From a virus, in IMG/VR virus record IMGVR_UViG_3300027770_000064, positions 1-61,008 of that record: a stretch of DNA of 61,008 bases. The stretch is one strand, 5' to 3'. Position 1 is the stretch's first letter, and each line of letters begins with the position of its first letter. Both the position numbers and the translations under genes were made by a program. Below the pieces are notes generated by a model. The model saw only the letters and a program-made list of their open reading frames with translations. It did no database searches and had not been told where the DNA came from. Shown here piece by piece: positions 8,023 to 52,755 of the stretch.

Positions 8023-9237
8023 TTATTTAACTTTTTGTTTCTTTCGTTCCTTAAATTTTTGGGATTTAATTTCAGGAACTGGTTGTGTTTTTTGTATGTG
8101 TGCTTCGTATTGTTTTCGTTGTTGATCTATTTGTTCAAGAATTGTTTTATATTGATTATAATTTTGCTGAACTCTGTCAATTTCGCCCTTTGGTAGTCTA
8201 TTTTCTTCCAAAAGTTTCTTACACGCAAGAAATCCAAGTTCTGGTCTACCAGCAGCAAATGCTGTTGCTCCAAGTTCATCTAATGCCACAAAGTTATAAA
8301 TGGCATCAGGAACAAATAGAATCTCACCTTGAGGTAGTGGCATTTCTGCTGCCATTCGTGCAAACACAAATGCAGCTGCTGGTTGATTATATTTTTGACG
8401 AAGAACTTGGGAAATATGGACCAACGGTTCGGAACGAATTGGACGATAATTATATGCATCAAGGAATGATGCTTGAATCTCAGGCCACGGTCTATCCAAC
8501 ATTGCGCGACAAACAGCAACACGATAAAGTGCGTAATAAACTTCCTCTGCCCATCCACCCATTTCAGCACGCTTCTTATATGCTGCCTCAGACTTTTCCC
8601 ATTGCTGAGAATCAAAATACGATTGTGCAAGATAGAATTGATACCTAGTGTTGGTTGGTTCATCCACCATTGCAATTTCAAGCATATCGGCATCTCTCTT
8701 GTATTTTTCTACTGGAGTAATTCCAACATTTCTTGCACCAAGAGTTCGTGCATTGAGATTATACTTTCCTTCAATCTTTGTAAGCATTGGTTGTTCTTTA
8801 GCACATGCTGGATATTCGTGAAGAACACCTTTGTATTCCCACTTGGCATCCATTCGGAAAATTTGAGTTCTCCACCAAGAGAAATCTTCGCGACCCATGC
8901 GAATCACATATCCATCTGCTGTCATTTCTAATGGAAATTTAAAATCACCTTCTATGCAGTCATCCGCATCAATCATCCAGATATAATCACACTTACCATC
9001 ACAATGGCGAAGTGCCTGTGTTCTATTGTGACCAAAGTTCTTCCACTCATCTTGATGAATCTCACCAGGAATTCCTTTTTCTGCAAAGAAATTCTTAATG
9101 ATATCTTGAGTTCCATCGGTGGATCCAGTATCGGAAACAATCCAGTAATCAATGTACTTGTAAATAGAATTCAAACACTCATGAATAATATGAGATTCAT
9201 TCTTAACGATCATAGATAGTGCAATTTTTGGTTTCAT
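8023..9237 (-). CDS. GT2-type glycosyltransferase with TPR-like C-terminus
   Basis: A 404-residue protein. The N-terminal 100 residues form a clear GT-A family 2 domain: MKPKIALSMIVKNESHIIHE start, VSDTGSTDGTQDI nucleotide-binding loop and YIWMIDADDCIEGDF carrying the DxDD metal-binding motif. The C-terminal half (about residues 180-350) is helix-rich with TPR-like spacing (YQFYLAQSYFDSQQWEKSEAAYKKR, YYALYRVAVCRAML). The tail is very basic (KSQKFKERKKQKVK). This SPBc2-type GT2 plus TPR layout is known in bacterial surface glycan and protein glycosylation loci. It is the last gene of the sugar island and sits directly next to the collagen-like fibres. Donor and acceptor are unknown. Confidence 0.85.
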   Translation of the reverse strand: MKPKIALSMIVKNESHIIHECLNSIYKYIDYWIVSDTGSTDGTQDIIKNFFAEKGIPGEIHQDEWKNFGHNRTQALRHCDGKCDYIWMIDADDCIEGDFKFPLEMTADGYVIRMGREDFSWWRTQIFRMDAKWEYKGVLHEYPACAKEQPMLTKIEGKYNLNARTLGARNVGITPVEKYKRDADMLEIAMVDEPTNTRYQFYLAQSYFDSQQWEKSEAAYKKRAEMGGWAEEVYYALYRVAVCRAMLDRPWPEIQASFLDAYNYRPIRSEPLVHISQVLRQKYNQPAAAFVFARMAAEMPLPQGEILFVPDAIYNFVALDELGATAFAAGRPELGFLACKKLLEENRLPKGEIDRVQQNYNQYKTILEQIDQQRKQYEAHIQKTQPVPEIKSQKFKERKKQKVK

Positions 9238-9248
9238 AATTAATACTC

Positions 9249-10586
9249 TTAAAACTTGACTGACTGAAAATATTCATTCACTTTCTCTTCTATGTAGACA
9301 AGTTGTTGATCTGAAATTACTGGACTTGTACCTAAAAAGAAAGTATCTTTTGTAATTTTTGTTGCAACTGGAAAATCTATCATTGCGTTTCCACTATACA
9401 ATCCACGATAAGCTGGTTGAAGTAATAAATTACCACCAAAATAATTTCTAGTCTGTATTTTACAATTTTCAAGATATAAAGTAAAATCAGATCTATTTAA
9501 CTGAACACCATCCCTCACGGTCAATGGAAATGCAAACCATGAAGGATCTGAATTTTGAGTTGCTTTGGGCAAATGAAATATTGTTTCATATTTCGAAAAT
9601 ATAGAATATAATCTGTTAAAATTATTCTTTCTTATTTTTATAATTTCAGGTATTTTTTTAATCTGAACTAGACCAATAGCTGCTTGCAAATCTAGTGGTT
9701 TTAAATTATAACCAATTTCATCGTAAATATATTTGTGATCAAAAATTACATCTGGCATATCTGGCAACCAATTGCTGAATCTCTTTTTACACATTCCATT
9801 CTTCAGGCAAGCAGAACCTTTACCAGAGCAATAGCAACCTCTACCCCAATCACGAATACTTCTAATTACTGTTTCTTGTTCTTCTGTTCTACATCCAACA
9901 AATCCACCTTCTCCCATTGTAATATGGTGTGCTGGGTAAAAAGAACATGATGCAAATTGACCAAACGATCCCAAAAGTTTACCATCAAAAGAACTACCAA
10001 GAGCATCACAACAATCTTCAAGTAAAATAAGATTATATTTGTCTACGATCTCCATAACACGATCCATGTTTGGAGGATTACCTAAAACATGTGCAAAAAT
10101 TACTGCACTTGCTCCATCTTTTGCTGCCTTTTCAAATTGATCCAAATCAATATTAAGAGTCTCAATTTCTATATCCACAAAAACAGGAACAAAACCATTT
10201 TGCAATATTGGATTTACTGTTGTTGGAAATCCAGCACATGGAGTTATTATTTTTGATCCTACTGGCAAATTGTATAAATTTTTAGATTTAAGCGCAGAAA
10301 CCATCAATAAATTTGCACTAGATCCACTATTCGTCAATAACCCATAATTTTTCCCTATATGAAATTTAAATTGTCTTTCAAATTTAATACCATTTTCACC
10401 GAGAGCAAACCAACCATCCAATAGGCATTCGACGGCAGCAATATACTCGTTTTCATCCATAAAAGATCCAGCATATGAAATCCAATCAATACCTGGAATC
10501 CATTCTTTTTTAGATGAAATCACAATCTCTGTTATCAATTTTGATAACTTTTCTTTAATAAGATTATCAGTGTTTAAATTAATCAT
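9249..10586 (-). CDS. rfbH: CDP-4-keto-6-deoxy-D-glucose-3-dehydrase (E1, RfbH-like)
   Basis: A 445-residue DegT/DnrJ-fold enzyme. The usual PLP-binding lysine is replaced by histidine in FYPAHHITMGEGG (His220/221), the hallmark of PMP-dependent 3-dehydrases. Cysteines at 192/193, 251, 253, 260 and 266 (GCYCSGKGSAC...) closely match the [2Fe-2S] cysteine pattern of Yersinia E1, and DHKYIYDEIGYNLKPLDLQAA is the RfbH-type C-terminal motif. It should remove the 3-hydroxyl of CDP-4-keto-6-deoxyglucose on the way to 3,6-dideoxyhexoses (abequose, paratose, tyvelose or ascarylose type). Cytidylyltransferase and 4,6-dehydratase genes are not in the window and would have to come from the host or elsewhere in the phage. 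ColD, which lacks the Fe-S cysteines, is a less likely alternative. Confidence 0.88.
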   Translation of the reverse strand: MINLNTDNLIKEKLSKLITEIVISSKKEWIPGIDWISYAGSFMDENEYIAAVECLLDGWFALGENGIKFERQFKFHIGKNYGLLTNSGSSANLLMVSALKSKNLYNLPVGSKIITPCAGFPTTVNPILQNGFVPVFVDIEIETLNIDLDQFEKAAKDGASAVIFAHVLGNPPNMDRVMEIVDKYNLILLEDCCDALGSSFDGKLLGSFGQFASCSFYPAHHITMGEGGFVGCRTEEQETVIRSIRDWGRGCYCSGKGSACLKNGMCKKRFSNWLPDMPDVIFDHKYIYDEIGYNLKPLDLQAAIGLVQIKKIPEIIKIRKNNFNRLYSIFSKYETIFHLPKATQNSDPSWFAFPLTVRDGVQLNRSDFTLYLENCKIQTRNYFGGNLLLQPAYRGLYSGNAMIDFPVATKITKDTFFLGTSPVISDQQLVYIEEKVNEYFQSVKF

Positions 10587-11415
10587 TGTTTATTTTCAAT
10601 ATAGAATCTACGCACTGATACACAGTGCTTTTTGGTGTATATCCTAGCATACAAAGAGCGGTATTGTCAAGATACATGTTCTCAATTTGAACAGTTTTAT
10701 GAAATTGTGGTGTATCTATTGATAATATTTCACTTTGAGAATTTAACTTAACTTTAGCATAATTGATTATATCTTTTATCTTTGTTGGTTCTGAATTGGA
10801 AATATTTGTTATGGATTTATTATCTGCATTATCAATACATGTCATTATAGCATTACAACAATCATCAACACCCATATAATCTCTAATAACTTCTCCATTA
10901 TTATACAATTTGACCTGATCATTGGATTTCAACTGATTGAACATATATTGCAATGCATTCTTCTTATTGGATACTTTTTTGTCACCAGGACCAATTATAT
11001 TGGTCAATCGCATTATCTTATAGTTGATGTTAAAAGTTTCACAATAAGATTCAACCATTCTTTCTGCTGCATATTTAGTAATCGAATAAAATCCTCTGGG
11101 ATTGCAAATTGAAGTTTCCTTTGCTGGAAATTCATTAGTCTTTCCATACACAAACCAAGAACTGATAAAATTAAATGTTAATGGTTCTGAAAAGTTTTTA
11201 CACTGTTCAAGAACATTTATTAGTTTTATGAGATTTGTATTAACATCCAAATATGGATCTGTATATACATTATAATTATCAACTGTGCTTATTAAATAAA
11301 GAACAGTATTAGATTGTGGTGTATTACATTCTCTAGGTATAGCGATACATTTGTCTTTGAATGTATCAACAAATCTAGACCCAATAAATCCACTAGATCC
11401 AAATACCGATATCAT
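10579..11415 (-). CDS. NAD(P)-dependent SDR nucleotide-sugar reductase/epimerase
   Basis: A 278-residue extended-SDR protein with Rossmann start MISVFGSSGFIGSRF (G6, G9, G12), active-site Ser near 85 (FNFISSWFVYG) and Y110-xxx-K114 (FYSITKYAAER). The length and RLTNIIGPGD motif fit RmlD/RfbJ-like 4-ketoreductases or epimerases. It overlaps the E1 gene by 8 bases, so a natural inference is that it reduces the 4-keto-3,6-dideoxy intermediate made by the E1 system. The precise sugar stereochemistry cannot be told from sequence alone. Its ATG also overlaps the stop of the upstream glycosyltransferase (ATGA). Confidence 0.75.
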   Translation of the reverse strand: MISVFGSSGFIGSRFVDTFKDKCIAIPRECNTPQSNTVLYLISTVDNYNVYTDPYLDVNTNLIKLINVLEQCKNFSEPLTFNFISSWFVYGKTNEFPAKETSICNPRGFYSITKYAAERMVESYCETFNINYKIMRLTNIIGPGDKKVSNKKNALQYMFNQLKSNDQVKLYNNGEVIRDYMGVDDCCNAIMTCIDNADNKSITNISNSEPTKIKDIINYAKVKLNSQSEILSIDTPQFHKTVQIENMYLDNTALCMLGYTPKSTVYQCVDSILKINND

Positions 11416-12278
11416 TTTAGTAAATTGGATAAATGGTTGACAGCATTATCTAAATTTCTCACATTTCTAAACAAGGTTTGAATATGAGATTTATCATAAT
11501 CAGCATACTTATCGTATGCATCTTTAATTGATATATCATCATTAAATATGAAACATTCATCTGGAATATCAGAAAGACCAGTTTCAATTCTATTTTTCTT
11601 TGTCATATAAATTTTACATCCAGAGTCCAATGCTTTGAGAACAGCACCACATGAAATCCCATATGCCTTGTCGTGAACTAGAAATCTAGTTTGTTCCAAT
11701 AGACGAAGATCGTGAACAACTCCATCTGGTGCTTCGATTGCACCAGAAACAATGACTGGGAATCCTTCTTGCTTCAACTTCATCAAGTCTGCAAGATACA
11801 TGGTATAATATCTCTCCATCAACTGACTGATATAAGTCTGTGGACCGATCTTTCCATATTGCGGAACAAACTTTGGAACAAAATGTCCATTCCATTGTTT
11901 AGCATCTGGATGTGCTATGATCTTGATGATATTATCCACACCATTAAACTTATCAATATCAAACTTAACTACTACGCAAGCAAAGACTTTCATTTTTGGT
12001 GCGAGCACATATGGAATCTTTCCACTGATTGTAACAGCAGCATCAAATCCATGAATAGTGTCAGTAAATTTCAAGTTCATGTCTGGGTGAAGATGTTCCC
12101 ATTTATAGAATACTGGACCTTTTTGAACATGCCCCTCTTCGTCAAAAGAGCAATAATTCTCTCCACATTCTAGTGTTAATTTTCTAGTAGCAACATGACA
12201 ATCATGACCAAGTGCTTCAAAAGTTTTAATATGCCAATACATTTCATCTGGGTGATGATTAAAAAATACAATTTTCAT
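11412..12278 (-). CDS. GT-B-like glycosyltransferase (putative)
   Basis: A 288-residue protein starting MKIVFFNHHPDEMYWHIKTFEALGH, which looks like the first Rossmann half of a GT-B fold. In the C-terminal half the stretch LEQTRFLVHDKAYGISCGAVLKALDSGCKIYMTKKNR resembles the donor-binding region of GT4-like enzymes, where a conserved G-x-x-x-x-E/D or K-A-L-x-x-G pattern holds the nucleotide sugar. No membrane segment. It lies between the E1/SDR pair and the GDP-mannose epimerase, so either sugar could be its donor. The family assignment is by fold-like features, not a confident match. Confidence 0.6.
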   Translation of the reverse strand: MKIVFFNHHPDEMYWHIKTFEALGHDCHVATRKLTLECGENYCSFDEEGHVQKGPVFYKWEHLHPDMNLKFTDTIHGFDAAVTISGKIPYVLAPKMKVFACVVVKFDIDKFNGVDNIIKIIAHPDAKQWNGHFVPKFVPQYGKIGPQTYISQLMERYYTMYLADLMKLKQEGFPVIVSGAIEAPDGVVHDLRLLEQTRFLVHDKAYGISCGAVLKALDSGCKIYMTKKNRIETGLSDIPDECFIFNDDISIKDAYDKYADYDKSHIQTLFRNVRNLDNAVNHLSNLLK

Positions 12279-12281
12279 TGT

Positions 12282-12437
12282 TTACCATCCTATAAATTTA
12301 TCTTGTTCTTCTACTTTGATTACTACAGTTTTATTCAATCTGTAGTCTTTGACTATCTTGTCCACATCAACATTCTTTTCATATGTCGGTATTGACAAGA
12401 ATGGTTTACCATCTTCATATACGATGATGTAATGCAT
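12282..12437 (-). CDS. Small hypothetical protein in sugar island
   Basis: A 51-residue protein starting MHYIIVYEDGKPFLSIPTYE and ending KVEEQDKFIGW. Its ATG lies one base after the stop of the GDP-mannose 3,5-epimerase gene and it fills the gap before the next glycosyltransferase. Codon pattern and tight packing support it as real. It is a short alpha/beta protein with no recognisable motif. A longer frame is open upstream but overlaps the epimerase coding region, so I use the short start. Confidence 0.55.
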   Translation of the reverse strand: MHYIIVYEDGKPFLSIPTYEKNVDVDKIVKDYRLNKTVVIKVEEQDKFIGW

Positions 12438-12438
12438 T

Positions 12439-13467
12439 TTACTTTCTATGTTTATCTTCCATGTCCAGTTGTGCGGAATTTGCATGAACTGGAACGCTAG
12501 TAAATGACGAACAATCCTCATGCTGAGTTTCAATCCATTTGTAAGTTTTCTCAATACCAACAGAAAGTGGTTGCGATGGTTCCCAACCAATCTTTTCCTT
12601 ATAGAGTTTATTATCAGAATTTCTACCCATAACTCCAACTGGTCCTTTCACATTGTGTATCTTAACATCTTTTCCAGAGATATCAATAACCATCTTTGCT
12701 AGATTATTAATTGTTATCATTTCCTCTGAACCAATATTCACTGGACCAGAAAAATCTGATCGCATCAATCTTAGAGTTGCTTCAACACACTCATCGATAT
12801 ATAGGAATGACCGAGTTTGTTCTCCAGTACCCCACACATCAATCGTGCCATTTTTTGCTTCTATAACCTTACGGCAAAGTGCCGCTGGTGCTTTCTCCTT
12901 GCCACCCTTCCATGTGCCTTCTGGTCCAAAGATATTATGATATCTTGCAATCCTTACATTCAACTTATGATTGCGAGCATAAGATAGATAAAGTCTTTCG
13001 CTGAAAAGTTTCTCCCATCCATACTCACTATCTGGTGCAGCAGGGTATGCGGAAGATTCTGAACACTTTGGATTATTTGGATCTTCCTGGTTGTATGCAG
13101 GGTACATGCAAGCAGATGAAGAATAAAACACTCTTCCTACTCCAGTACGCATACAACGCTCAACAATATTTAAATTGATAAGAGCGGAATTATGCATTAC
13201 ATTTGCATCATTCTCTCCAGTGAAGATATATCCTGCACCACCCATATCAGCAGCGAGTTGATAAACCTCGTCATAATGCATATTAAAGAGTTTGTCGCAC
13301 ACCACTTGATCGCGCAAATCTCCAATCATAAAATCATCTGCTGTGCTTGCAGAATATTCTGGATATTTAAGATCACATACCTTTACATAATTTCCTTCAT
13401 TTTTAAGTCGTTTAACGAGATGAGAACCAATAAATCCCCCACCACCCAAAACCAATATATTTTTCAT
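12439..13467 (-). CDS. gme: GDP-mannose 3,5-epimerase
   Basis: A 342-residue extended-SDR enzyme very close in motif to plant-type GME. It has the GGGGFIGSH dinucleotide loop, YSSSACMYP with candidate catalytic Cys120, Y149-xxx-K153, and a HNIFGPEGTWKGGKEKAPAA segment with Lys192 in the place of the second catalytic residue. The later VNIGSEEMITINNLA and GRNSDNKLYKEKIGW motifs are also GME-type. It should convert GDP-D-mannose to GDP-L-galactose (and GDP-L-gulose). A last 20-residue extension after EKTYKWIETQ is unique-looking. A phage copy implies a need for L-galactose-type sugar in a glycan. GDP-mannose itself would come from the host. Confidence 0.88.
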   Translation of the reverse strand: MKNILVLGGGGFIGSHLVKRLKNEGNYVKVCDLKYPEYSASTADDFMIGDLRDQVVCDKLFNMHYDEVYQLAADMGGAGYIFTGENDANVMHNSALINLNIVERCMRTGVGRVFYSSSACMYPAYNQEDPNNPKCSESSAYPAAPDSEYGWEKLFSERLYLSYARNHKLNVRIARYHNIFGPEGTWKGGKEKAPAALCRKVIEAKNGTIDVWGTGEQTRSFLYIDECVEATLRLMRSDFSGPVNIGSEEMITINNLAKMVIDISGKDVKIHNVKGPVGVMGRNSDNKLYKEKIGWEPSQPLSVGIEKTYKWIETQHEDCSSFTSVPVHANSAQLDMEDKHRK

Positions 13468-14267
13468 ATTAAAAAGTCCTTGAATTTTTCTATATTATCC
13501 TGCACATACTGTGGCATAGTCTGTATTGAGTCTACAACTATATTTATACCTTCGTCTTTTCTCCCTAATGGGTCGATTAAATTTTCTCTATTCTTTTTTA
13601 AGTCATCAATAGTTAGATGAGAGAATTCTGTATGTGCAAAATTATCAAGTTTTGTTTTTACAGTATTAGGATTTCCAATATAAGAAAAATGCCAACCACC
13701 ATCTTTAATTCTAGGAAATGTAAAACAAGTTTTGTTATCCTTGAATCCTCTTGTTCCAATTTCCTCTAAATCTTTCTTTAAACACATTCCAGAATTAATC
13801 CAAGGGAATCCGTCTGCTCTTGCATTCAAATACCATAAATAAAAATTTTGTTCAAATATAACAGGTATTGGAGATTCCCAATACTGTGAATTTTTATAAT
13901 CTTGTATTTTTTTACTAGAAACAATTTCATCTAAATCAGATATAATAATAAAATCTTCATCATTGGCATTTTCTATTCCATTTCTCAAAGAATTTCTTTG
14001 AATTTGATCATTATGATGAGCAAAATGCTGAACCGTATTCGATACAAATTTATCTGCTGGCACAACAACATGAATGATCTTATGCAAGAATTTAGAATAT
14101 CTTTCTTTATTTTCTTTAAAATATAATGGTTTTGGTTTTAACTGATGACTCAATTCTGCTTCAACAATAACAAAATAGTCAACTTGAGAATCCAATTCAT
14201 TTAATCTAATATCAAGAATATCCAATTCGTTAAAAAATTGAAAACAATCATATATTTTTCTTTGCAT
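13464..14267 (-). CDS. GT17-type N-acetylglucosaminyltransferase-like protein
   Basis: A 267-residue protein with the glycosyltransferase family 17 signature: IYDCFQFFNELDILDIRLNEL at the start, VDYFVIVEAELSHQLKPKPL, and later RNSLRNGIENANDEDFIIISDLDEI with the SDxDE metal motif. GT17 members include eukaryotic beta-1,4-N-acetylglucosaminyltransferase III and many bacterial or viral relatives of unknown acceptor. The ATG overlaps the stop of the gene downstream in the same ATGA style as the rest of the island. Donor sugar is not certain from sequence. Confidence 0.8.
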   Translation of the reverse strand: MQRKIYDCFQFFNELDILDIRLNELDSQVDYFVIVEAELSHQLKPKPLYFKENKERYSKFLHKIIHVVVPADKFVSNTVQHFAHHNDQIQRNSLRNGIENANDEDFIIISDLDEIVSSKKIQDYKNSQYWESPIPVIFEQNFYLWYLNARADGFPWINSGMCLKKDLEEIGTRGFKDNKTCFTFPRIKDGGWHFSYIGNPNTVKTKLDNFAHTEFSHLTIDDLKKNRENLIDPLGRKDEGINIVVDSIQTMPQYVQDNIEKFKDFLI

Positions 14268-14284
14268 TTTTATTCCTCTTAATT

Positions 14285-14824
14285 TTATTGAACTCTAAAA
14301 GTAATGCTGTTGTCTTTGGTCATATACCCGTTATCGATATCAAAATGTAAAGATAATGCAGATACAACTTCATACCAATCAATGTCATGGAATGACATAT
14401 AACAATTTTCTTTTACTTTTGGTTTCCAATATTTAACATCCTTCATCACACAATCAAATGAGTGACAACCATCAATATAAATGAAATCAAAAATTTTATT
14501 TTCAAAATCTTTTGATGCGTTTTCTGAATCTTTTCTAATATGCTTGATTGATGGATATTGTTCAATATTTTTATAGAAAATGTTCATTATTCCTTCTATA
14601 TTTTCTTCATCAAATAAATTATCAGAATTAAAATTTAAACTAAACGGATCGACTGCATACAAAATTTTTAAATCTTTAAAATTTTTAGCAAATGTAACAG
14701 TTGATTCTCCAATATATGATCCCAACTCTAAAGCAGTTTCTACTTTAATGTTACTAGAAACAAAATCGCAAATATCAATCAATCCTTGTACACCTTCAAG
14801 TGGTCGCATTGGTCTAACTTTCAT
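14285..14824 (-). CDS. Class I SAM-dependent methyltransferase
   Basis: A 179-residue protein with a typical motif I VETALELGSYIGESTVTFA, an acidic end of strand 2 (ILYAVDPF) and FDFIYIDGCHSFDCVMKD, the Methyltransf_24-like strand 4/5 signature. Such enzymes in polysaccharide clusters methylate sugar hydroxyls. A protein or small-molecule substrate is equally possible. It is followed by an 18-base gap before the GT17 gene. Together with the second methyltransferase at 15605-16129 it suggests O-methyl decoration of the product. Confidence 0.75.
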   Translation of the reverse strand: MKVRPMRPLEGVQGLIDICDFVSSNIKVETALELGSYIGESTVTFAKNFKDLKILYAVDPFSLNFNSDNLFDEENIEGIMNIFYKNIEQYPSIKHIRKDSENASKDFENKIFDFIYIDGCHSFDCVMKDVKYWKPKVKENCYMSFHDIDWYEVVSALSLHFDIDNGYMTKDNSITFRVQ

Positions 14825-14827
14825 AAA

Positions 14828-15547
14828 TTAATTTCCTCTGTTAGTATTTCTTGTAATTTCATATTCATCCCATCTTTCAATCATTTTTTTAACTTCCGAC
14901 ATATATTCATTGCTGTGGAATCCAAATGTAGTTTCCAATTGATTTTCCTTTAGCGGAGCACTCCCTAGTGCAAACTTCTTTGCAAATTCTCCTGTTGGAA
15001 ACTTACAATCCATTTTTTCAAAATAATCCCTCAGTGATACACATATGATTACATCCTCACCCATTCCTGCGTGTGTCATTCTTGAGATAAATTCCCTGCT
15101 TATATTTGCTCCTGTTTGTAGTAATTTCTTACTACGGAAACAAAATCCACCACAACCAACTTGATACTTTGGTTCAGTAACCCAAGGAAAATATCCAGGT
15201 TCGGCATCCATCCACGGACAACCGATGTAATCATAGTTATAAAATTCATCTGTCCAGTTTGTTGGTTTGCAGATAAATCCATCAGTCTGAACAATCAAAC
15301 AAAATTCTGTATTGACATATTTATTCAAATCCGTTATACAAAATGTATTATACTCTGGATATGACATCTTGTCAATTGTATGAATTGTCACTTTAGCAGT
15401 AGTCTGAATGTCTGGATCTGCTGTAATCAAAATAACAGACCCAAAGTTTATTTTACGAGTGCAGATATCGATTACTTCAATAAGTTTGGAAGTATCTTTG
15501 CCAGTACCATCTATAGTGACTAAAGTTACTTTTGATAAATCTATCAT
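14828..15547 (-). CDS. DUF5672-type putative glycosyltransferase
   Basis: A 239-residue protein from the ATG at 15547 (MIDLSKVTLVTIDGTG). An upstream ATG at 15583 is open but has poorer ribosome-site context and adds residues not seen in the paralogue. Motifs: VTIDGTG near the start, FCLIVQTDGFICKPTNWTDEF, YDYIGCPW and GCGGFCFRSKKLL, with GEDVIICVSLRDYFEK. The same order occurs in the protein at 18815-19525 (HGDGF, YLGAPW, NGGFSFRSKKL, PEDLVIA), so these are two diverged paralogues of the DUF5672 family common in capsule and O-antigen loci. Glycosyl transfer with a GT-A-like fold is inferred. Confidence 0.75.
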   Translation of the reverse strand: MIDLSKVTLVTIDGTGKDTSKLIEVIDICTRKINFGSVILITADPDIQTTAKVTIHTIDKMSYPEYNTFCITDLNKYVNTEFCLIVQTDGFICKPTNWTDEFYNYDYIGCPWMDAEPGYFPWVTEPKYQVGCGGFCFRSKKLLQTGANISREFISRMTHAGMGEDVIICVSLRDYFEKMDCKFPTGEFAKKFALGSAPLKENQLETTFGFHSNEYMSEVKKMIERWDEYEITRNTNRGN

Positions 15548-15604
15548 GAACCAACTCGTTTCAGTATAGTAAGACCATTGCAATTACTAAACATTTCATG
15601 AATT

Positions 15605-16129
15605 TTATTCTCCAATAATTGCCCAACTATAATCAGAAAAAACTTTAATTTTTTCAATATTAAATAAACTATTTACTGCTTGACTTACTCCAAATAATGT
15701 TGGACTATCTGGTATATAATCATGTCCAGACATTATTCCAGTTTTTTTTAATTTTGGAAGACTAACATTTATATCATGTACTACAGAATGAAAAGAATGA
15801 TCTGCGTCAATATAAATAAAATCATAATAATCATCAATTAAATTTGGAACTATCTGAGAAATACTTCCTTGTTTAAAATTAATGTTTTTATGAAAATTTA
15901 AAATATTTTTCATTTTTTCTGTTAAAACTATATCAACAGTATCAACAACATCAGCATAGTATGCAAATAAAGATGTGCTAACTCCATCATTACAACCTAA
16001 TTCTAGAACTTTATGATTTTTGTTCATTTTAAAAAATAAACAAAGTTCATCTAATCCTTCTATATAATTAACTCCACCAGCATCTCCCATTCCATGCATT
16101 CTTTCTTGTTTTAAATTTGGTTTATTCAT
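15605..16129 (-). CDS. Class I SAM-dependent methyltransferase
   Basis: A 174-residue protein using ATG at 16129 (MNKPNLKQERMHGMGD). A longer frame begins at a TTG, and the preceding gene stops just before 16129. Motif I is KVLELGCNDGVSTSLFA, followed by VDTVDIV and YDFIYIDADHSFHSVVHDI, then GIMSGHDY. This is the same Methyltransf_24-like group as the 14285-14824 protein but clearly diverged. A sugar O-methyltransferase role is inferred from its place among glycosyltransferases. Confidence 0.75.
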   Translation of the reverse strand: MNKPNLKQERMHGMGDAGGVNYIEGLDELCLFFKMNKNHKVLELGCNDGVSTSLFAYYADVVDTVDIVLTEKMKNILNFHKNINFKQGSISQIVPNLIDDYYDFIYIDADHSFHSVVHDINVSLPKLKKTGIMSGHDYIPDSPTLFGVSQAVNSLFNIEKIKVFSDYSWAIIGE

Positions 16130-16131
16130 TT

Positions 16132-16393
16132 TTATTTCACTTTCCAATAGTTGTAAATTCCTTTATCCAATTCATACTTATCCCATAACTTTCTCTCCCG
16201 CATGGGTTGGGTCTTTGCCCATTCCCACATTTTACCCAATCCATCTTTTAAAGATGTCACTTGCTTATATCCAAGAACATCCTTGATCTTATCATGCGTC
16301 ACCCATGCATGTTTTACTTCATGTCTCTGTTCGAGATGCTGTTTAGTACCTGATCCTACCACATCAATTAACAAATTGCAAGCATCATTTATA
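16132..16393. repeat. 262-bp duplicated segment, copy 1
   Basis: Direct repeat of 17823-18084, same orientation, about 1.7 kb apart, roughly 88% identical by eye with a perfect central run of about 67 bp. Similarity stops abruptly after agcatcatttata. Confidence 0.9.
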
Positions 16394-16443
16394 TCCGATG
16401 CACTCAAAGACAATGCACGATACGATTCTTCAACTGTATTCAC
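16132..16443 (-). CDS. Duplicated C-terminal fragment of the island SDR epimerase
   Basis: A 103-residue frame whose last 86 residues (INDACNLLIDVVGSG...GIYNYWKVK) are a second copy of the C-terminus of the epimerase at 17823-18818, with only about 5 substitutions. The Rossmann half and active-site Ser/Tyr/Lys are absent, so it cannot be an epimerase alone. At DNA level the 262-bp copies differ at about 30 sites, mostly silent, which hints that the peptide is or was under selection. It keeps its own ATG overlapping the upstream stop (ATGA). It could be a decaying remnant, a standalone domain or a recombination scar. Confidence 0.75.
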   Translation of the reverse strand: MNTVEESYRALSLSASDINDACNLLIDVVGSGTKQHLEQRHEVKHAWVTHDKIKDVLGYKQVTSLKDGLGKMWEWAKTQPMRERKLWDKYELDKGIYNYWKVK

Positions 16444-17186
16444 TGTATTACCTCTCTATCGCTAATTGCTTGCCAATCAATTGTGGGTGAACATTCTCCA
16501 ACACAATGAGTTGATAATCCAGGGATAGGAGTCAACAGAAATCTTTTTCTATTTTCTTGTAACCATACAAATTTACCATGATCTTCTTTTCGTGTCGAAT
16601 GAACATCATAATCCTCATCGAAGATTTTCTTACTTAACATGAATGTTCCCGTTGTGCTTGGGGTAGTTCTCCAGTGATGGGTTCTGGTTATAATAATCTT
16701 TTCCCTCAAATGCGAATAATGATCATAAATGTATTTATCCAAATGATCGTATAGTGAAACATAACTTACATTATCATTGTACATTGTGTAGAGTTCTTCT
16801 ACCTTTGAAACCCATCCATCAACATGAAGATAATCATTTTCTAAAAGATAAACTATATCATTTTGTCGAATAGATGTATCATTTTTTACAATATCCATTG
16901 TTGGAAAAAATGACGCAAAATCAGTTCCACCGACAATTTCATATGGTGTAAATTTATTTTTGTATTTTGCAATCCAATTTTCTTCGATGATGCCATCCAT
17001 AACAACATTAATCTTAACATTAGCACCAGCAGTAGTACGAAGAAGATTTAAAAATACTTTTTCATAATTAAACCAATTGTCTACATTTCCCCAACGACGA
17101 GCAGATCGTGCTTGATAACGATTGTCTTGTCTTGCAGCATTATTGCTTCCACCAACATTATAATGTCTAAAAAATATATGAATCAT
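16440..17186 (-). CDS. Putative GT-A glycosyltransferase
   Basis: A 248-residue protein starting MIHIFFRHYNVGG. The region INVVMDGIIEENW followed by DIVYLLENDYLHVDGWV resembles a GT-A fold with an ExD/xND-type metal site. Further on, HHWRTTPSTTGTFMLSKKIFDED is the type of acceptor-side loop seen in such enzymes. No membrane helix or signal peptide. The start overlaps the end of the mini-DegT gene (TAATG), so the two are translated together. The donor and linkage are unknown, and the family assignment is inferred from motif pattern. Confidence 0.6.
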   Translation of the reverse strand: MIHIFFRHYNVGGSNNAARQDNRYQARSARRWGNVDNWFNYEKVFLNLLRTTAGANVKINVVMDGIIEENWIAKYKNKFTPYEIVGGTDFASFFPTMDIVKNDTSIRQNDIVYLLENDYLHVDGWVSKVEELYTMYNDNVSYVSLYDHLDKYIYDHYSHLREKIIITRTHHWRTTPSTTGTFMLSKKIFDEDYDVHSTRKEDHGKFVWLQENRKRFLLTPIPGLSTHCVGECSPTIDWQAISDREVIQ

Positions 17187-17821
17187 TATTTACTATCTGT
17201 ATATACTGGATGCTTTGAAAGATCTGGATATGGTAATTCAAGATCTGGATTGTGTTTTGGAGTGCCATCAAGATTATAAAACTGTGTCATCAGAAGAAGA
17301 CCACGGGCAGCAATCTCTGGCATCATATAGAAGTTCCACCCCAACATATCAAATGTATCTTCGTGATAAGAACACTCATTTCTTCCACTAAATCTTGCTT
17401 TCTTGAACCACTTGTACGCATCCACATCATCAGTAATTATCATGCCACCCTTGCCCAATTTAAGATGCTTATATGGTCCAGTGAAAGATAAACACATATG
17501 TGTATTTGGCACATACATGTTTGTTGTGAATTGCAATGCGCAATCCCAAACCTTTGTTGGTTTTAGTTGATACCCACCTTTGATCTTGGTTCCTTCGACT
17601 GGTTCAAATTTTACTTTTGCACCAGCATGAATAATTTCACAGGGAACTGACATATAAGTTCTTGCTGGTATTGTGATCTCAAGTCCTTGAACTTTCTCAT
17701 AATACAAAGCAAGAAACAATGCGTTACTCATGTTGTCAAGAGCAACAGCATAAGGCGCACCAGTATATTCTGCTACCTTTTCCTCGAACTGTTCTGTAAT
17801 TTTATGTACACCTTGTGCCAT
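17186..17821 (-). CDS. Short DegT/DnrJ/EryC1-fold enzyme
   Basis: A 211-residue protein, about half the length of normal DegT/DnrJ/EryC1/StrS sugar aminotransferases (near 370). It has the family start (FEEKVAEYTGAPYAVALDNMSNALFLAL), the ITIPARTYMSVPCEIIHAGAKVKF substrate region, and SFTGPYKHLKLGKGGMIIT in the position of the PLP-lysine loop, with the lysine of PYKH as the likely Schiff-base residue. The C-terminal small domain is missing. Compact homologues are known in phage and marine genomes. It may be a true minimal aminotransferase or a 4-keto-sugar-modifying enzyme. Confidence 0.75.
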   Translation of the reverse strand: MAQGVHKITEQFEEKVAEYTGAPYAVALDNMSNALFLALYYEKVQGLEITIPARTYMSVPCEIIHAGAKVKFEPVEGTKIKGGYQLKPTKVWDCALQFTTNMYVPNTHMCLSFTGPYKHLKLGKGGMIITDDVDAYKWFKKARFSGRNECSYHEDTFDMLGWNFYMMPEIAARGLLLMTQFYNLDGTPKHNPDLELPYPDLSKHPVYTDSK

Positions 17822-17822
17822 A

Positions 17823-18084
17823 TTATTTCACTTTCCAATAGTTGTAAATGCCCACATCTAATTCATACTTCGACCATAGTTTTCTTTCACGCATTGGTTG
17901 AGTTTTTGCCCACTCCCACATCTTACTCAATCCGTCTTTTAGAGTTGTTACTTGCTTATATCCAAGAACATCCTTGATCTTATCATGCGTCACCCATGCA
18001 TGTTTTACTTCATGTCGTTGTTCAAGATGTTGTTTGGTTCCAGATCCTATCACATCAATTAACAAATTGCAAGCATCATTTATA
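17823..18084. repeat. 262-bp duplicated segment, copy 2
   Basis: The parent copy of the direct repeat at 16132-16393, forming the 3' end of the complete epimerase gene. Confidence 0.9.
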
Positions 18085-18818
18085 GAAATATGATCATCTC
18101 CACCAATATTGAATATTTGCTTTGATGCCTTATCTTCAATAGCACCCATCCAAAAGTATGGAACACAGTCATCAATATAACTAAATGCTCTGGTTTGCTC
18201 TCCATCACCATAGATCGTCATTGGCATACCGTTAAGATGCTGATACATCCAAATACCTAAAACATTTCTATACTTGTCCCAGATGTTTTGATTGACACCA
18301 TATACATTGTGAGGTCTAAAGATACACCAATCAAGACCATGCTGTTCTCCTGCAACATGGAGATCCATCTCACACGCATATTTTGCAATGCCATATGGAT
18401 CTATTGGTGCTTGCTGATGCGATTCCTTGAAGGGAACTTCACCATTGCCATAAACTGCCATGGTCGATGTAAATACAAATCTCTTGATCTTGTGCTTGAT
18501 GCTAAGATTGATCAACTTTGTAGTTGCAATCAGATTATTTTCATAATTATATTGACGAATGAAAGGACTTAACCCTTCAGCAGCATATGCGGCAAAATGA
18601 AAGACATAATCAAACTTATGTTCCTTGAAAAGATATTCTATTTTTTTGCTATTGCTTGTAAGGTCGTAGTTGTAAAAAACAACTTTAGAATTTACATTCT
18701 GGATGTATCCACCAGAAAGATCATCAATACCATACACCGTTGCTTTGTCATTCTCAATCAACCAATCAGCAAGACGAGAACCTAAAAGACCAGCAACACC
18801 AGTAATTAAAACCTTCAT
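17823..18818 (-). CDS. NAD-dependent nucleotide-sugar epimerase (GalE-like SDR)
   Basis: A 331-residue extended SDR starting at ATG 18818 (MKVLITGVAGLLGSRLADW). This start is fixed by a GGAGAC ribosome site and an ATGA overlap with the previous stop, although a longer frame is open. It has the GxxGxxG loop, FTSTMAVYGNGEVPF with active-site Ser/Thr, PYGIAKYACE with the Y-xxx-K pair, and YGDGEQTRAFSYIDDCV. Together these fit a UDP-hexose 4-epimerase or related dehydratase. Its last 86 residues are duplicated at 16132-16443. Substrate is inferred only to be a nucleotide sugar. Confidence 0.82.
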   Translation of the reverse strand: MKVLITGVAGLLGSRLADWLIENDKATVYGIDDLSGGYIQNVNSKVVFYNYDLTSNSKKIEYLFKEHKFDYVFHFAAYAAEGLSPFIRQYNYENNLIATTKLINLSIKHKIKRFVFTSTMAVYGNGEVPFKESHQQAPIDPYGIAKYACEMDLHVAGEQHGLDWCIFRPHNVYGVNQNIWDKYRNVLGIWMYQHLNGMPMTIYGDGEQTRAFSYIDDCVPYFWMGAIEDKASKQIFNIGGDDHISINDACNLLIDVIGSGTKQHLEQRHEVKHAWVTHDKIKDVLGYKQVTTLKDGLSKMWEWAKTQPMRERKLWSKYELDVGIYNYWKVK

Positions 18819-19525
18819 ACAGTCTCCAATAATTTCACTTTGTGGGGATGAGTTCCACCACAATGGAATCCAAAACTCTCATCCGATGAAAGTATGTATC
18901 CATCTACAAAGGGTGCTTCACATGAAAACTTACCAGCAACTCCTATATCACTTGTAAATTTAAATCCTTGTTTTTCCAGTTGTTTTCGCATGATTATTGC
19001 TATGACAAGATCTTCTGGTATACCATAATATTCATCTTTGTACAGTTGACTTACAGATTCCATTAATTTTTTAGATCTAAATGAAAATCCACCATTCCCA
19101 ACAAAATAAGTTTTTTGTGATTCGTAGTACGCTTTTTTAACCAATTCCCATCTATTTGAACTTCTTTCTAGATTAGATCTTGGCCAAGGTGCTCCTAGAT
19201 AATCATATTTTAAAAATTCACCAGTCCATGCATTTGGATTTGTGGCAAACCCATCACCATGACAATATATCATATAACTAGTATCAAAATACCGATACAA
19301 TTCAGTTAAACAGAATTTGCTAAATTCATCGTATCCAAGATTTCGTATTTGCACATGTTCAATATCAGGATCGATTGAATGATGATTTCCTGAAGTTAAA
19401 AATTTAACTTTAGCATTTGGAAAAAATTGTTTGCTGTATTTTAATGAACGCAATATAGTTGCATCATTACCAACACCGTCCACTCCAAGAAATGTTATAT
19501 CTGATATATCAATTGTATTTGGCAT
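18815..19525 (-). CDS. DUF5672-type putative glycosyltransferase, second copy
   Basis: A 236-residue protein from ATG 19525 (MPNTIDISDITFLGVDGVG). The frame is open further upstream but overlaps the neighbouring gene. Motifs run parallel to the 14828-15547 protein: VDGVGNDAT, YMIYCHGDGFATNPNAWTGEF, YDYLGAPW, GNGGFSFRSKKLM and GIPEDLVIAIIMRK, ending SFGFHCGG. The two copies are strongly diverged outside these motifs and probably have different acceptors. Glycosyl transfer is inferred. Confidence 0.75.
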   Translation of the reverse strand: MPNTIDISDITFLGVDGVGNDATILRSLKYSKQFFPNAKVKFLTSGNHHSIDPDIEHVQIRNLGYDEFSKFCLTELYRYFDTSYMIYCHGDGFATNPNAWTGEFLKYDYLGAPWPRSNLERSSNRWELVKKAYYESQKTYFVGNGGFSFRSKKLMESVSQLYKDEYYGIPEDLVIAIIMRKQLEKQGFKFTSDIGVAGKFSCEAPFVDGYILSSDESFGFHCGGTHPHKVKLLETV

Positions 19526-19889
19526 ACGACTTTTCTTCTTTGAGATTCGAATTTGACTTTTGATTGATTTGATTTTTAATTTCAAATCTTTTATCATTAG
19601 TAATATAAACAGATCTTGCAAGTTCTATGAACTCATGATCGAACTGTTTATTTGCTTCTTTAATTCGTATCTGATCTTCTATATCCCAAAGAGTTTTATT
19701 TACTTTAGTCAAGTCTGCCATCTCTTCGATGAATGAATAAAAGTATCCCTGATCTATCAGGGATTTTTCAATTTCCATTCTTTCTTTTTTAATATTTACG
19801 AGTTTTCTCTCGTCTTTGATACATTCTTCTTTGATTGTAAGAATTGTATATTTGTCAATTGCCTCGCCAATAGAAACTTCAAGCATCAT
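19509..19889 (-). CDS. DUF6165-like small protein of sugar clusters
   Basis: A 126-residue protein beginning MMLEVSIGEAIDKYTILTIK, with KTLWDIEDQIRIKEANKQFD in the middle. This layout (V-S-I-G-E-x-I-D-K-x-T-I-L near the start, L-W-x-I-E-D later) is that of DUF6165, short helical proteins that accompany glycosyltransferases in bacterial and phage glycan loci. Function not established. The ATG at 19889 overlaps the stop of the gene before it (ATGATG context). The C-terminus is Lys/Asn-rich and probably flexible. Confidence 0.7.
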   Translation of the reverse strand: MMLEVSIGEAIDKYTILTIKEECIKDERKLVNIKKERMEIEKSLIDQGYFYSFIEEMADLTKVNKTLWDIEDQIRIKEANKQFDHEFIELARSVYITNDKRFEIKNQINQKSNSNLKEEKSYAKYN

Positions 19890-20626
19890 ATTATATAATT
19901 CCAATCCTTTTTATAAATATGGTCAACATATGAAAAATCTGGATTCTGCAATCTGTCATTCACTTTTCGCGAATACATGTTCAGTTTTCCTTTAGTATTT
20001 AGTTTTTCAACAAGATAGCAAAGTGAAGTTTCAACTGTATGAATCTCTACAGCATTCTCAATAACCCAGCATAGATCAAATACATTGAATAGTTTGATAT
20101 GTTCTGGTTTATGGTATACACACTTTATATTTGAATTTGTAATATTGACTTCCCTGTATACCATATCAGGTGGAGAAGCAAACATATTATTCACAAAAAT
20201 AAATGGTTCGTTCTTTATACCAAGGATTTCCTTACAACGAATCTCTCGTTCTTGATTTCGTTCAAATTGCAAATAATCTTTCCAATTATTTTCATTGACA
20301 TCAAATCCCAGGAATTGCATCAACAGATACTTGCCCTTCATCGGTAGCACACCAAATCTATGATGTGAAATATCAAAAGGAATATAAATGAATTCTTCTG
20401 TATTGATTGCAATTGGTGTCTTATATAATTCCTTACGAGGAAAATCTTCATTTACATTTACAAAATTGATTCCCTTGATGTAATCCTTGATGTATAGGAA
20501 TTCTGGAATCACAGGCCATATGACTTCATATTCTGAAGATATAAAATGTCTTGCTGCCTTCTGTAAGAAGAATATATCACCAATGCCAGCTGGTTGCCAA
20601 AATAAAACTTGTTTATTCACTTGCAT
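19886..20626 (-). CDS. GT9/heptosyltransferase-like GT-B protein (putative)
   Basis: A 246-residue protein with MQVNKQVLFWQPAGIGDIFFLQKAARHF at the start, the GxGD-type first loop of heptosyltransferase and ADP-heptose family GT-B enzymes. Near the C-terminus, FDLCWVIENAVEIHTVETSLCYLVEKL resembles the donor-side motif (a conserved acidic and Thr/Ser residue contacting the sugar nucleotide). It is shorter than classical heptosyltransferases (about 320-350) and may be a minimal version. It overlaps its upstream neighbour by 14 bases. Confidence 0.65.
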   Translation of the reverse strand: MQVNKQVLFWQPAGIGDIFFLQKAARHFISSEYEVIWPVIPEFLYIKDYIKGINFVNVNEDFPRKELYKTPIAINTEEFIYIPFDISHHRFGVLPMKGKYLLMQFLGFDVNENNWKDYLQFERNQEREIRCKEILGIKNEPFIFVNNMFASPPDMVYREVNITNSNIKCVYHKPEHIKLFNVFDLCWVIENAVEIHTVETSLCYLVEKLNTKGKLNMYSRKVNDRLQNPDFSYVDHIYKKDWNYII

Positions 20627-21281
20627 TACCTACTAAGTTAAATTTTACGATTTCTTCTCGAAGTCCCATTTCTCTCAGTGAATTTTCTTTGGATTTTCCA
20701 TCAGCAATTCCCATTGTTATCATTGGCGTGAATCCTTCTGGCAATGATGTTCCAGGCCATATGGCATATGGATGTCCAAGCATACCAATTCGCATCTTGG
20801 ATAAAAATTCTGGCAATACTTCACCCATCAGAACTTCATGATCAAAAAATTTCACACCCAAATTCATTTCATTGAATTCGCATCGTTCAACCCAGTAAGT
20901 CAAACACTGTATAGTCTTTTCTGTATAATTTACATAAATTGGTGATGCTTTGGGTAAATTGGGATTCACATCTGGAGGATTGCCTTGATATGCAAATGCC
21001 ATATCGCAGTTGTCTTTCAGGGTATCAAATATAGAAAGTTCAGCATGAATCAAAGAATCAACATCCATCCACACAAATGGTCGTTTCTTTTCTTCCAACA
21101 CAGAAAGAATGAATCTTGGTTTAGCAAGACAATTTAAACGGTATTCACCACGCGAAGGTAATTCGCGAATATCATGTGGAATATTATTCTCATTGCAATT
21201 GATTCTCAGACGACGCGCGTGATCGCTATAGTATGTACGATCATCTATATCACAATAAAAGGATACAATTTCAGTTTTCAT
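20613..21281 (-). CDS. GT-A-type glycosyltransferase (putative)
   Basis: A 222-residue protein. KPRFILSVLEEKKRPFVWMDVDSLIH carries the D-x-D metal-binding motif (DVD) of GT-A transferases, preceded by an acidic start (IVSFYCDIDDRTYYSDHARRLR). EFNEMNLGVKFFDHEVLM lies where the acceptor and catalytic loop is expected. Similar small proteins occur as nucleotide-diphospho-sugar transferases in marine phage glycan islands. The specific family is not certain. Confidence 0.65.
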   Translation of the reverse strand: MKTEIVSFYCDIDDRTYYSDHARRLRINCNENNIPHDIRELPSRGEYRLNCLAKPRFILSVLEEKKRPFVWMDVDSLIHAELSIFDTLKDNCDMAFAYQGNPPDVNPNLPKASPIYVNYTEKTIQCLTYWVERCEFNEMNLGVKFFDHEVLMGEVLPEFLSKMRIGMLGHPYAIWPGTSLPEGFTPMITMGIADGKSKENSLREMGLREEIVKFNLVGNASE

Positions 21282-22110
21282 TGATTAATTTAAATAATTG
21301 ATCATCAGCAGAAACAAGTTCTTTAACCCGATTAAAGTTGTCTCTTACTGCATCAAGTTTACTTTCATATAGTTCTTTTGTCAATGTTTTTGGATCAAAA
21401 TCTGGAGTTAATTCTATAATTCCATCTTTGTTGAAGATATCACCAATATCTGGTGCTCCCCAATATACTGGTATTGTTCCCGTAGCAAAACAATCAGTTA
21501 TTTTCTCTGTATAATATGTACTGTACTTATCATTTTCCACAGTAATAGAAAACATATAATCATTCAGTCCTTCAGACTTATCGCCCCACGGAACACCTGG
21601 ACTTAATCTACGAGATCCAAGAACTCCACCATACAGATCAAGGTTATTTTTATATTGTTCTGCCAATTGATGACGAATAGCATGTCCAAATGCAAATTTC
21701 TTGGGAGAAGCAATCATAGATGCTAATTTTGTTTTTGGAAAAATATCTTGGTTCTTTATCCATGGAAGATTACTTCCTGCTGGACAATATCTTACATTTG
21801 GATGCTTTCCCAACCAACTCTTCTCAGAAGTAAAAAGAAGATCATATGAATCGCAAATATTTAAAAATTGTTCTTCCCAAACTTCTCTTGGAAAGTTCAT
21901 TGCATGAAAAATAGCACGCGATTCGCAAACCCATGCTATTTTCAGTGTTCCAGGTTTCTTTTGATAAGACATTCCGATGGCAATTCCACCATCTATAAAA
22001 ACTTTTACAGGAAAGTCTTCCGCGATCCAACTGAAGGATTGTGGCAATAAATTAGAATTTGATGAATATTCTATTTGAAATGGAGCACCAATTGCTTGCA
22101 TTTTTTTCAT
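21271..22110 (-). CDS. GT10-like (fucosyltransferase-type) glycosyltransferase
   Basis: A 279-residue protein from ATG 22110 (MKKMQAIGAPFQIEY). A GGAGA site lies 9 bases upstream, whereas an in-frame ATG at 22128 has none. The C-terminal half holds the GT10 signature: YMFSITVENDKYSTYYTEKI, then DCFATGTIPVYWGAPDIGDIF and GIIEL. GT10 enzymes transfer fucose or related 6-deoxy sugars from GDP-sugars. Since this island also makes GDP-L-galactose, a GDP-L-sugar donor is attractive but unproven. This is the first gene of the island, 27 bases after regA. Confidence 0.78.
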   Translation of the reverse strand: MKKMQAIGAPFQIEYSSNSNLLPQSFSWIAEDFPVKVFIDGGIAIGMSYQKKPGTLKIAWVCESRAIFHAMNFPREVWEEQFLNICDSYDLLFTSEKSWLGKHPNVRYCPAGSNLPWIKNQDIFPKTKLASMIASPKKFAFGHAIRHQLAEQYKNNLDLYGGVLGSRRLSPGVPWGDKSEGLNDYMFSITVENDKYSTYYTEKITDCFATGTIPVYWGAPDIGDIFNKDGIIELTPDFDPKTLTKELYESKLDAVRDNFNRVKELVSADDQLFKLINEN

Positions 22111-22137: not shown

Positions 22138-22533
22138 TCACTTACCGATGTGATACTTAGGAATCAAAGTCCATTCTTTCTTTTCTTTATGCGGAATGAT
22201 CTTCAATCTAGCAAGAGAAAGTTGTGGTTGCTCATACTGTTTTGGATCTATCACATTCACCAATTCCCATTCTACCAGTAATTTAACTATTGTATTTCTT
22301 CGCCCAAGATCGTCTTCTGATATATCAGAGTCAAGACCATCAAGAACAAACATTTCTTTAAAATGTATGATAGCATATCTACCTCGCTTGTGTAGTATAT
22401 GACACGATTGATATAATTTCTTTTCAGTTTTAGAAGATACACCGATTCTAGTGAGAGTTTCCTTAACTTTAAGGAAATCTTCTTCACTTTTCAATGTTAT
22501 CTCCACGCCCAATCCCTCAAAAATATCTTCCAT
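22138..22533 (-). CDS. regA: RegA translational repressor
   Basis: A 131-residue homologue of T4 RegA (122). It has VEITLKSEEDFLKVKETLTRIGV, KKLYQSCHILHKRGRYAIIHFKEMF and EWTLIPKYHIGK, all strongly conserved RegA segments. RegA binds AU-rich start regions of early mRNAs, including genes 44 and 45, and shuts off their translation. It follows 62 as in T4. In T4 the next gene is DNA polymerase (43), but here the sugar island follows. A CTAAATAT box sits between 62 and regA and might give extra late expression. Confidence 0.95.
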   Translation of the reverse strand: MEDIFEGLGVEITLKSEEDFLKVKETLTRIGVSSKTEKKLYQSCHILHKRGRYAIIHFKEMFVLDGLDSDISEDDLGRRNTIVKLLVEWELVNVIDPKQYEQPQLSLARLKIIPHKEKKEWTLIPKYHIGK

Positions 22534-52754: not shown

Positions 52755-52755
52755 A

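Follow-up and report, generated by a model that had tools for sequence, protein, structure and literature searches.

Gene Content of the regA–GT2 Island

The virus record IMGVR_UViG_3300027770_000064 of IMG/VR (positions 1–61,008; this whole stretch of 61,008 nucleotides is the window) belongs to a T4-like phage and carries an island of sugar-related genes between regA and a gene for a collagen-like fiber. An unbroken series of minus-strand open reading frames (ORFs), whose neighbors overlap or nearly touch, runs from 22110, the ATG of the GT10 gene, to 8023, the stop codon of the GT2 gene; these outer limits are exact. The tightly packed, same-strand layout and the two borders proposed in an earlier sequence-only reading of this DNA were confirmed by the ORF map and by the PHROG and Pfam matches of the border genes (Table 1). 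The island holds 18 ORFs of 100 aa or more and one of 51 aa (12282–12437) rather than the 17 genes first counted, and one of the 18, at 16132–16443, is a truncated duplicate. Pfam families found in it are GT10, GT17, GT2, DUF6165, DUF5672 (two proteins), Methyltransf_24 (two), three Epimerase-type short-chain dehydrogenases/reductases (SDRs), and DegT (one full-length and one short protein); the two additional SDRs, the small DegT protein, and the DUF5672, methyltransferase, and DUF6165 proteins named beforehand were all recovered.

The hidden Markov model search of every gene that accompanied that reading as a suggestion gave families for most, and five of the 18 ORFs (designated 11412, 16132, 16440, 19886, and 20613 by their lower coordinates) had no Pfam match at E ≤ 0.1. 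The estimate of about seven glycosyltransferase-like proteins held for GT10, GT17, and GT2 by Pfam and for 20613 (nGT) by fold; nGT is the only one of the five with a demonstrated glycosyltransferase fold, its predicted model (pLDDT, a model confidence score, 90.9) matching BoGT6a (2.5e-8) and the PBCV-1 capsid glycosyltransferase (2.8e-8) in Foldseek; 19886 looks GT9-like to the eye. Behind regA lie gp62 and gp44, and presumably gp45–47, so labeled by position alone. The GC minimum of the window, 0.29, falls inside the island; the adjoining replication genes (24–30 kb) are also partly low, at 0.33–0.36, so that base composition is weak evidence for an island.

Two of the sugar enzymes can be assigned firmly at the level of sequence, as had been anticipated. 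The product of 9249–10586 scores 477 bits against the RfbH equivalog of NCBIfam (cut-off 423) and 367 bits against the E1 dehydrase of the PDB, with a histidine replacing the pyridoxal phosphate lysine (AHHIT, aligned with 3bcx); the closest enzyme to the product of 12439–13467 is GDP-mannose 3,5-epimerase (GME; 320 bits in the PDB vs. 104 for the next kind). Within the island, the best NCBIfam score for a CDP-glucose 4,6-dehydratase was 41 bits (cut-off 278), no glucose-1-phosphate cytidylyltransferase exceeded the cut-offs of Pfam or NCBIfam, and no sugar-nucleotidyltransferase family matched in Pfam. With neither the dehydratase nor a nucleotidyltransferase, the host has to supply part of the donors; the early CDP-dideoxyhexose enzymes are also missing among the checked genes beside RfbH in two other loci (L042 and L071). 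The proposal that the phage builds a complete modified glycan stands as regards an assembly role, which the gene families support well, and falls as regards completeness. Genes resembling those for nonulosonic acid synthase, dTDP-glucose dehydratase, and an acetolactate-synthase-like thiamine pyrophosphate enzyme were observed beside RfbH-type genes in L042 (18124–20152) and L100 (668–3795).

The short DegT-type protein (211 aa) retains the lysine region when aligned with perosamine synthetase and lacks about 40 residues before it as well as the C-terminal part. The ORF at 16132–16443, which has its own start and sits between two cassette genes, copies 17823–18084 (262 nt, 89%), and this duplicate is, as judged from sequence, a rearrangement scar. 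An imported piece was considered and rejected, its identity being 89% to the window's own SDR3 end vs. at most 76% to any other phage compared; because the closest match lies in the same window, local duplication is likelier.

Table 1. Features of the island and its surroundings in the window, listed from the regA border.
Feature	Coordinates	Strand	Evidence
regA, upstream border of cassette site	22138..22533	-	PHROG 242 translation repressor 7.2e-53
GT10, fucosyltransferase-like, clade anchor	21271..22110	-	PF00852; PDB alpha-1,3-fucosyltransferases 2.8e-15 by profile
nGT, GT-A-fold glycosyltransferase, clade anchor	20613..21281	-	predicted model; Foldseek
Protein without Pfam, PHROG, or NCBIfam match	19886..20626	-	
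DUF6165 protein	19509..19904	-	PF19662 4e-11
DUF5672 protein a; real start probably more internal	18815..19621	-	PF18922 2e-16
SDR3, UDP-glucose 4-epimerase-like	17823..18818	-	PF01370 1e-45; PDB 4zrm 165 bits; under NCBIfam galE cut-off
Short DegT-type protein	17186..17821	-	PF01041; partial alignment to PDB perosamine synthetase
Protein without Pfam, PHROG, or NCBIfam match; glycosyltransferase-like by sequence look alone	16440..17186	-	
Truncated duplicate of SDR3 3′ end	16132..16443	-	nucleotide identity (see text)
Methyltransf_24 b	15605..16129	-	PF13578 2e-13
DUF5672 protein b	14828..15547	-	PF18922 1e-19
Methyltransf_24 a	14285..14824	-	PF13578 9e-17
GT17 glycosyltransferase	13464..14267	-	PF04724 3e-23
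GDP-mannose 3,5-epimerase-like (GME)	12439..13467	-	PDB 2c59
51-aa ORF 3′ of GME	12282..12437	-	relatives after GME: L034 47%, L035 41%
Protein without Pfam, PHROG, or NCBIfam match	11412..12278	-	
SDR1, sugar-nucleotide SDR traveling with RfbH	10579..11415	-	PF01370 2e-30; SDR1–RfbH pair in other loci (see text)
RfbH, CDP-4-keto-6-deoxyglucose 3-dehydrase (E1)	9249..10586	-	NCBIfam NF011936; PDB 3bcx
GT2, GT-A + TPR-like; downstream border, constant gene	8023..9237	-	PF00535 2e-14; predicted model
Collagen-like fiber, proposed acceptor	6219..7994	-	PF01391 2e-31
Small virion gene; relatives often directly 3′ of GT2	4075..4506	-	PHROG 1084 and 3304
Second collagen-like fiber, possible acceptor	1102..4071	-	PHROG tail fiber

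Block Exchange at the Site

Other contigs carry the same stretch (L004, 100% over 29,819 nt; L005, 100% over 30,192 nt; L006, 99.98% over 25,445 nt), so the island is not an accident of a single assembly. Relatives were collected by a gp44 search of IMG/VR and by scans of viral records (alignment A1) and of genome records with GT2; the best 80 loci of each were kept, and the counts apply to those sets. The 80 viral GT2 loci include five from this same phage, and the duplicates L004–L006, L028, and L049 were removed before islands were counted. A complete island was defined as running from regA to GT2, so that GT2 is present by definition in all 21 non-redundant complete islands; gene counts are underestimates, since gene calling missed some small genes that overlap others (the window's DUF6165 gene, for example), and Pfam tallies cover 247 of the 275 island proteins, the remainder being 17 window genes, 7 at fetch borders, and 4 shorter than 80 aa.

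Most close relatives retain GT10 and nGT downstream of regA and then diverge in gene content. L007 and the window share 95.1% identity over 13,284 nt, up to a point 13 nt short of the nGT end; window positions 9247–20625 (11.4 kb) have no alignment at E 1e-10, the counterpart in L007 being 10.2 kb, and similarity resumes 9 nt ahead of the start codon of GT2, at 97.0% over 1,667 nt. These break points coincide with gene edges. The least similar stretch of the shared flank is GT10–nGT (83%; GT10 protein 70%), so GT10 may be swapped independently of the rest. The 21 islands have 5–17 called genes and span 5.1–15.8 kb; at a minimum of 40% identity, 17 have GT10 within their first three genes and 15 have nGT within their first four, and 78 of the 117 protein clusters are confined to one island. 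Modules are shared with the window: L035 has the block from 19886 to SDR3, L034 and L035 have GME together with the 51-aa ORF, and L017, L041, and L070 have SDR1–RfbH.

Relatives that lack the island, with which a comparison had been recommended at the outset, were found in the viral GT2 sample: regA is followed directly by GT2, with a gap of 18–33 nt, in 13 of the 79 loci in which a GT2 gene was called (L173, the remaining one of the 80, has none). The island is one version of an exchangeable cassette, and the site is empty in other phages.

GT2 and Its Surroundings

A fresh search for GT2 in the 32 gp44-bearing records gave 26 matches at E ≤ 0.001, two of them trivial (14 bits); a strong GT2 (44–100% identity) is present in 24, and the other eight records stop within 9.2 kb of regA. 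Because the constancy of GT2 rests on 24 of 32 records, confidence in the reading favored below is slightly reduced.

A profile of 21 GT2 sequences retrieved from the PDB GmaR (1.3e-15), SunS (1.7e-12), and ThuS (1.3e-10), followed much more weakly by engineered TPR proteins, TarS, and chondroitin synthase. Peptides are the substrates of SunS and ThuS, and flagellin is that of GmaR. The GT2 model (pLDDT 88.9) consists of a GT-A domain and a C-terminal helical-repeat, TPR-like domain; ranks 1–6 in Foldseek are SunS and ThuS over the whole chain (5.3e-18 to 1.5e-15), with the TPR domains of O-GlcNAc transferase at lower ranks. GT2 scores 47 bits against the SunS equivalog of NCBIfam (cut-off 350) and so is not SunS itself. 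By profile and predicted fold, GT2 matches protein and peptide glycosyltransferases (GmaR, SunS, and ThuS), and it is a putative cytoplasmic enzyme of the SgtA/GmaR/SunS type.

Fiber-region genes lie at most five genes and 6 kb downstream of GT2 in 49 of the 57 loci with at least 2.5 kb of downstream sequence, and a Gly-X-Y run of at least eight occurs downstream in 29 of the 57; the gene directly 3′ of GT2 is often of the type found at 4075 in the window rather than a collagen gene. A distant clade (L153, L154, L156, L158, L163, L167, L171, L175, and L176) has GT2 directly between regA and dUTPase-like and DNA-related genes rather than fiber genes. Among 50,697 phage records, GT2 had 12 matches at E ≤ 1e-5 (best 36.6%, in a 309-kb Tunturiibacter phage) and none in named T4-like isolates, and nGT had no match.

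Fiber Threonines as Candidate Acceptors

The fiber gene beside GT2 encodes a Gly-Asn-Thr-rich protein with Thr at the Y position of 53 of 71 triplets, and the second collagen-like fiber has Thr at Y in 69 of 107. In Clostridioides difficile, according to the part of the published account drawn on here, SgtA likewise joins GT-A and TPR domains, is encoded directly upstream of bclA3, and attaches beta-O-GlcNAc to collagen-repeat threonines in vitro (PMC7157674). The order in the window, GT2 followed by a Thr-rich collagen-like fiber, repeats the sgtA–bclA3 arrangement; such a gene stands beside GT2 in the window but not in all relatives. Short Gly-X-Thr runs also occur in three large genes toward the window's right end (46963–56238), which are possible further acceptors.

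The best 80 bacterial loci with GT2 relatives, 53 stronger and 27 weaker, were examined with as much as 6 kb of sequence on each side. A collagen-like gene was found in the flanks of 16 of the stronger and 7 of the weaker relatives, with Thr at half or more of the Y positions in 13 of those 16 and 6 of those 7; shuffled ORFs gave no collagen-like call (0/543). In two genomes, pattern positions could be matched to the locus, which holds 22 of the 24 Gly-X-Thr matches in one and 21 of the 35 in the other. The combination of a GT2-type gene with a Thr-rich collagen gene looks like a general bacterial pairing for collagen glycosylation. Thr-rich collagen neighbors span several phyla (L188, L190, L197, L199, L205, L207, L212, L213, L216, L218–L220, L222–L224, and L235). 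For the phages, Thr at Y was tried as a marker of glycosylated collagen and rejected, being unrelated to the cassette and showing no significant excess with GT2.

Proposed Role and Alternatives

The following scheme would account for the locus. Judging by their families, GME would convert host nucleotide sugars to a GDP-L-galactose-type sugar, RfbH and SDR1 to a 3,6-dideoxyhexose-type sugar, and the GalE-like SDR and DegT proteins to others. In the host cytoplasm, GT2 would attach the first sugar to threonines in the Gly-X-Thr repeats of new fiber proteins, with its TPR-like domain holding the acceptor; GT10 and nGT, which most close-clade islands contain, would extend a common core, and the glycosyl- and methyltransferases of the variable middle would add and cap the outer glycan. 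Recombination within the conserved borders would swap out the middle as a unit, a replacement seen in one pair and accompanied elsewhere by mosaic sharing of modules, and a phage's own glycan on its fibers could alter host binding, fiber stability, or recognition. That GT2 starts O-glycans on fiber threonines in the host cytoplasm, with the cassette building a strain-specific glycan, is judged slightly the more probable side of the question. The fuller view remains tentative, at somewhat under an even chance: a serotype-like locus in which a constant SgtA-type collagen-threonine transferase and a block-exchangeable cassette would give each phage a different fiber O-glycan, including dideoxy and methylated sugars. 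The sequence-only reading had named either the virion or the host envelope as the destination of the glycan; the evidence favors the virion over the envelope, given the protein-glycosyltransferase type of GT2, the fiber genes that commonly follow it, the collagen links of its bacterial relatives, and the lack of an export membrane protein.

Several observations weigh against acceptance of this role for GT2. Its TM-scores to SunS and ThuS are just 0.53–0.60, and 37 of the 53 stronger bacterial relatives have no collagen-like gene nearby. Where empty-site loci have sequence past GT2, the next genes are dUTPase-like and other nucleotide/DNA-like genes (labels from the look of the sequence) in 9 of 12, not fibers, and fiber-type genes in 3. 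After seven near-duplicate loci were dropped, Thr at Y was found to vary independently of the cassette, from 0 to 0.97 (median 0.195) in 32 cassette loci, and three loci with an empty site had a median of 0.26. Of 23 long records with GT2, 10 contain the Gly-X-Thr pattern, vs. 2 of 13 T4-like records lacking GT2, which is not significant (p = 0.14). Since Thr tracks neither the cassette nor, significantly, GT2, some of these phages may use an acceptor other than collagen threonines. Host-supplied export, moreover, could stand in for the missing membrane genes.

The failure of Thr-rich collagens to follow the cassette or GT2 would be explained if GT2 acted on another virion protein, such as the 4075-type protein, whose gene so often adjoins it, or a non-collagen fiber, the collagen threonines being bystanders; the independent association of the bacterial relatives with collagen and the SgtA precedent make this improbable. 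Greater weight, although still unlikely, is given to the possibility that the cassette remodels the O-antigen or capsule of the host against superinfecting phages, with lipid carrier, flippase, and ligase supplied by the host. The gene classes of the cassette are those of O-antigen loci, which likewise have constant borders and a variable middle. A host-envelope role is also the published reading for pelagimyophage glycosyltransferases, in the part of that account used here (PMC7029224). The island proteins themselves argue otherwise: a hydropathy window, rather than a trained predictor, called one weak membrane segment in three of the 275 in the 21 islands and more than one in none, and in E. 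coli K-12 the same scan flags wbbH, rfbX, wzxC, and wcaJ but not the 11 other genes scanned. With no multi-segment protein among the 275, neither a flippase with a polymerase nor a transporter is encoded, the ligase and lipid-priming enzyme of O-antigen and capsule loci are likewise missing, and lipid-linked assembly would have to borrow export from the host; the constant enzyme, furthermore, is nearest to protein and peptide glycosyltransferases and lies beside fiber genes.

T4 glucosylates its own DNA, and GT2 with the cassette might similarly glycosylate phage DNA against host nucleases, a role with which the nucleotide/DNA-like genes after GT2 at most empty sites would agree. The thymidylate synthase/hydroxymethylase family, however, is missing from all 12 contigs of 77–157 kb, which are possibly incomplete (the control was positive in 9 of 14), and GT2, with its TPR-like domain, belongs to a type of glycosyltransferase that acts on proteins. 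A search for TET/JBP gave no match and its control was also silent, so it leaves room for DNA modification by that route. Glycosylation of DNA is considered very improbable overall, and glycosylation of fiber threonines by GT2 is preferred to all three alternatives.

Comparison With Known Systems

No near-identical phage isolate was found. Among possible indicators of the host, the major head protein is at most 56% identical to those of cyanophages, photosystem D1 was found in none of 32 contigs, and CsgG in none of 12; nine tRNAs lie outside the window on a 118-kb contig of the same phage (L268, L269, and L270).

Sugar islands with GME and RfbH-like genes in cyanophages, and the host recognition cluster of pelagimyophages, are already known. 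The cyanophage lipopolysaccharide (LPS) gene clusters, also in T4-like phages (S-SSM7 and S-B05), contain GME, SDR, glycosyltransferase, and methyltransferase genes, and differ in lying near hli03 or phoH, whereas the island described here lies between regA and fiber genes; whether they are functional or “stuffer DNA” is left open in the part of the account consulted (PMC3037559). The cyanophage isolates have no GT2 or nGT of the window type. None of 35 proteins in the cyanophage islands (L104, 13213–24973; L105, 3693–20523) has membrane segments, and this lack in S-SSM7 and S-B05 calls their “LPS” label into question. The pelagimyophage cluster, again in T4-like phages, is hypervariable and combines glycosyltransferase with fiber genes, but, as far as the portion of the source used here describes it, lies between VrlC and gp14 and diverges gradually (PMC7029224), in contrast to block replacement beside regA. 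Bacterial O-antigen and capsule loci share the swapping of a sugar-gene middle between constant borders, and differ in the flippase, polymerase, and ligase that these phage islands lack.

For the enzyme and its acceptor, the closest parallel is SgtA–BclA3 (PMC7157674), a GT-A plus TPR enzyme encoded just upstream of a collagen-like gene with a Gly-X-Thr acceptor region. GT2 is likened to SgtA through architecture and gene order; BclA3 belongs to a bacterial spore coat, not a virion, and the part of the account used here describes no exchangeable sugar cassette. In chloroviruses, the capsid protein is glycosylated in the cytoplasm, and its glycans join a shared core to decorations specific to each virus, according to the sections of the account cited (PMC5408694). 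PBCV-1 thus resembles the proposed system in its virus-encoded cytoplasmic glycosylation, and the predicted fold of nGT resembles that of the A064R transferase; the PBCV-1 glycans differ in being N-linked and on an algal-virus capsid, and no block-exchanged single-site locus appears in those sections.

Among the papers listed in searches of the open-licence literature, no title or abstract opening described phage-encoded glycosylation of collagen-like fibers. As far as that search extends, the new elements are the regA–GT2 site, which occurs both empty and with swapped contents, the constant gene for a putative protein glycosyltransferase, the absence of genes for export, and the connection to collagen, of which the bacterial association of GT2-type genes with Thr-rich collagen genes would be useful by itself. 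The locus offers a testable alternative to the LPS reading of phage sugar islands, with a named enzyme, an acceptor motif, and a natural experiment in its empty site, constant border genes, and swapped middles. If the proposal is correct, phages would join the chloroviruses in making their own virion glycans, and the exchange of glycan cassettes would be a route of phage–host coevolution in which the contact surface is varied by sugars as well as by protein.

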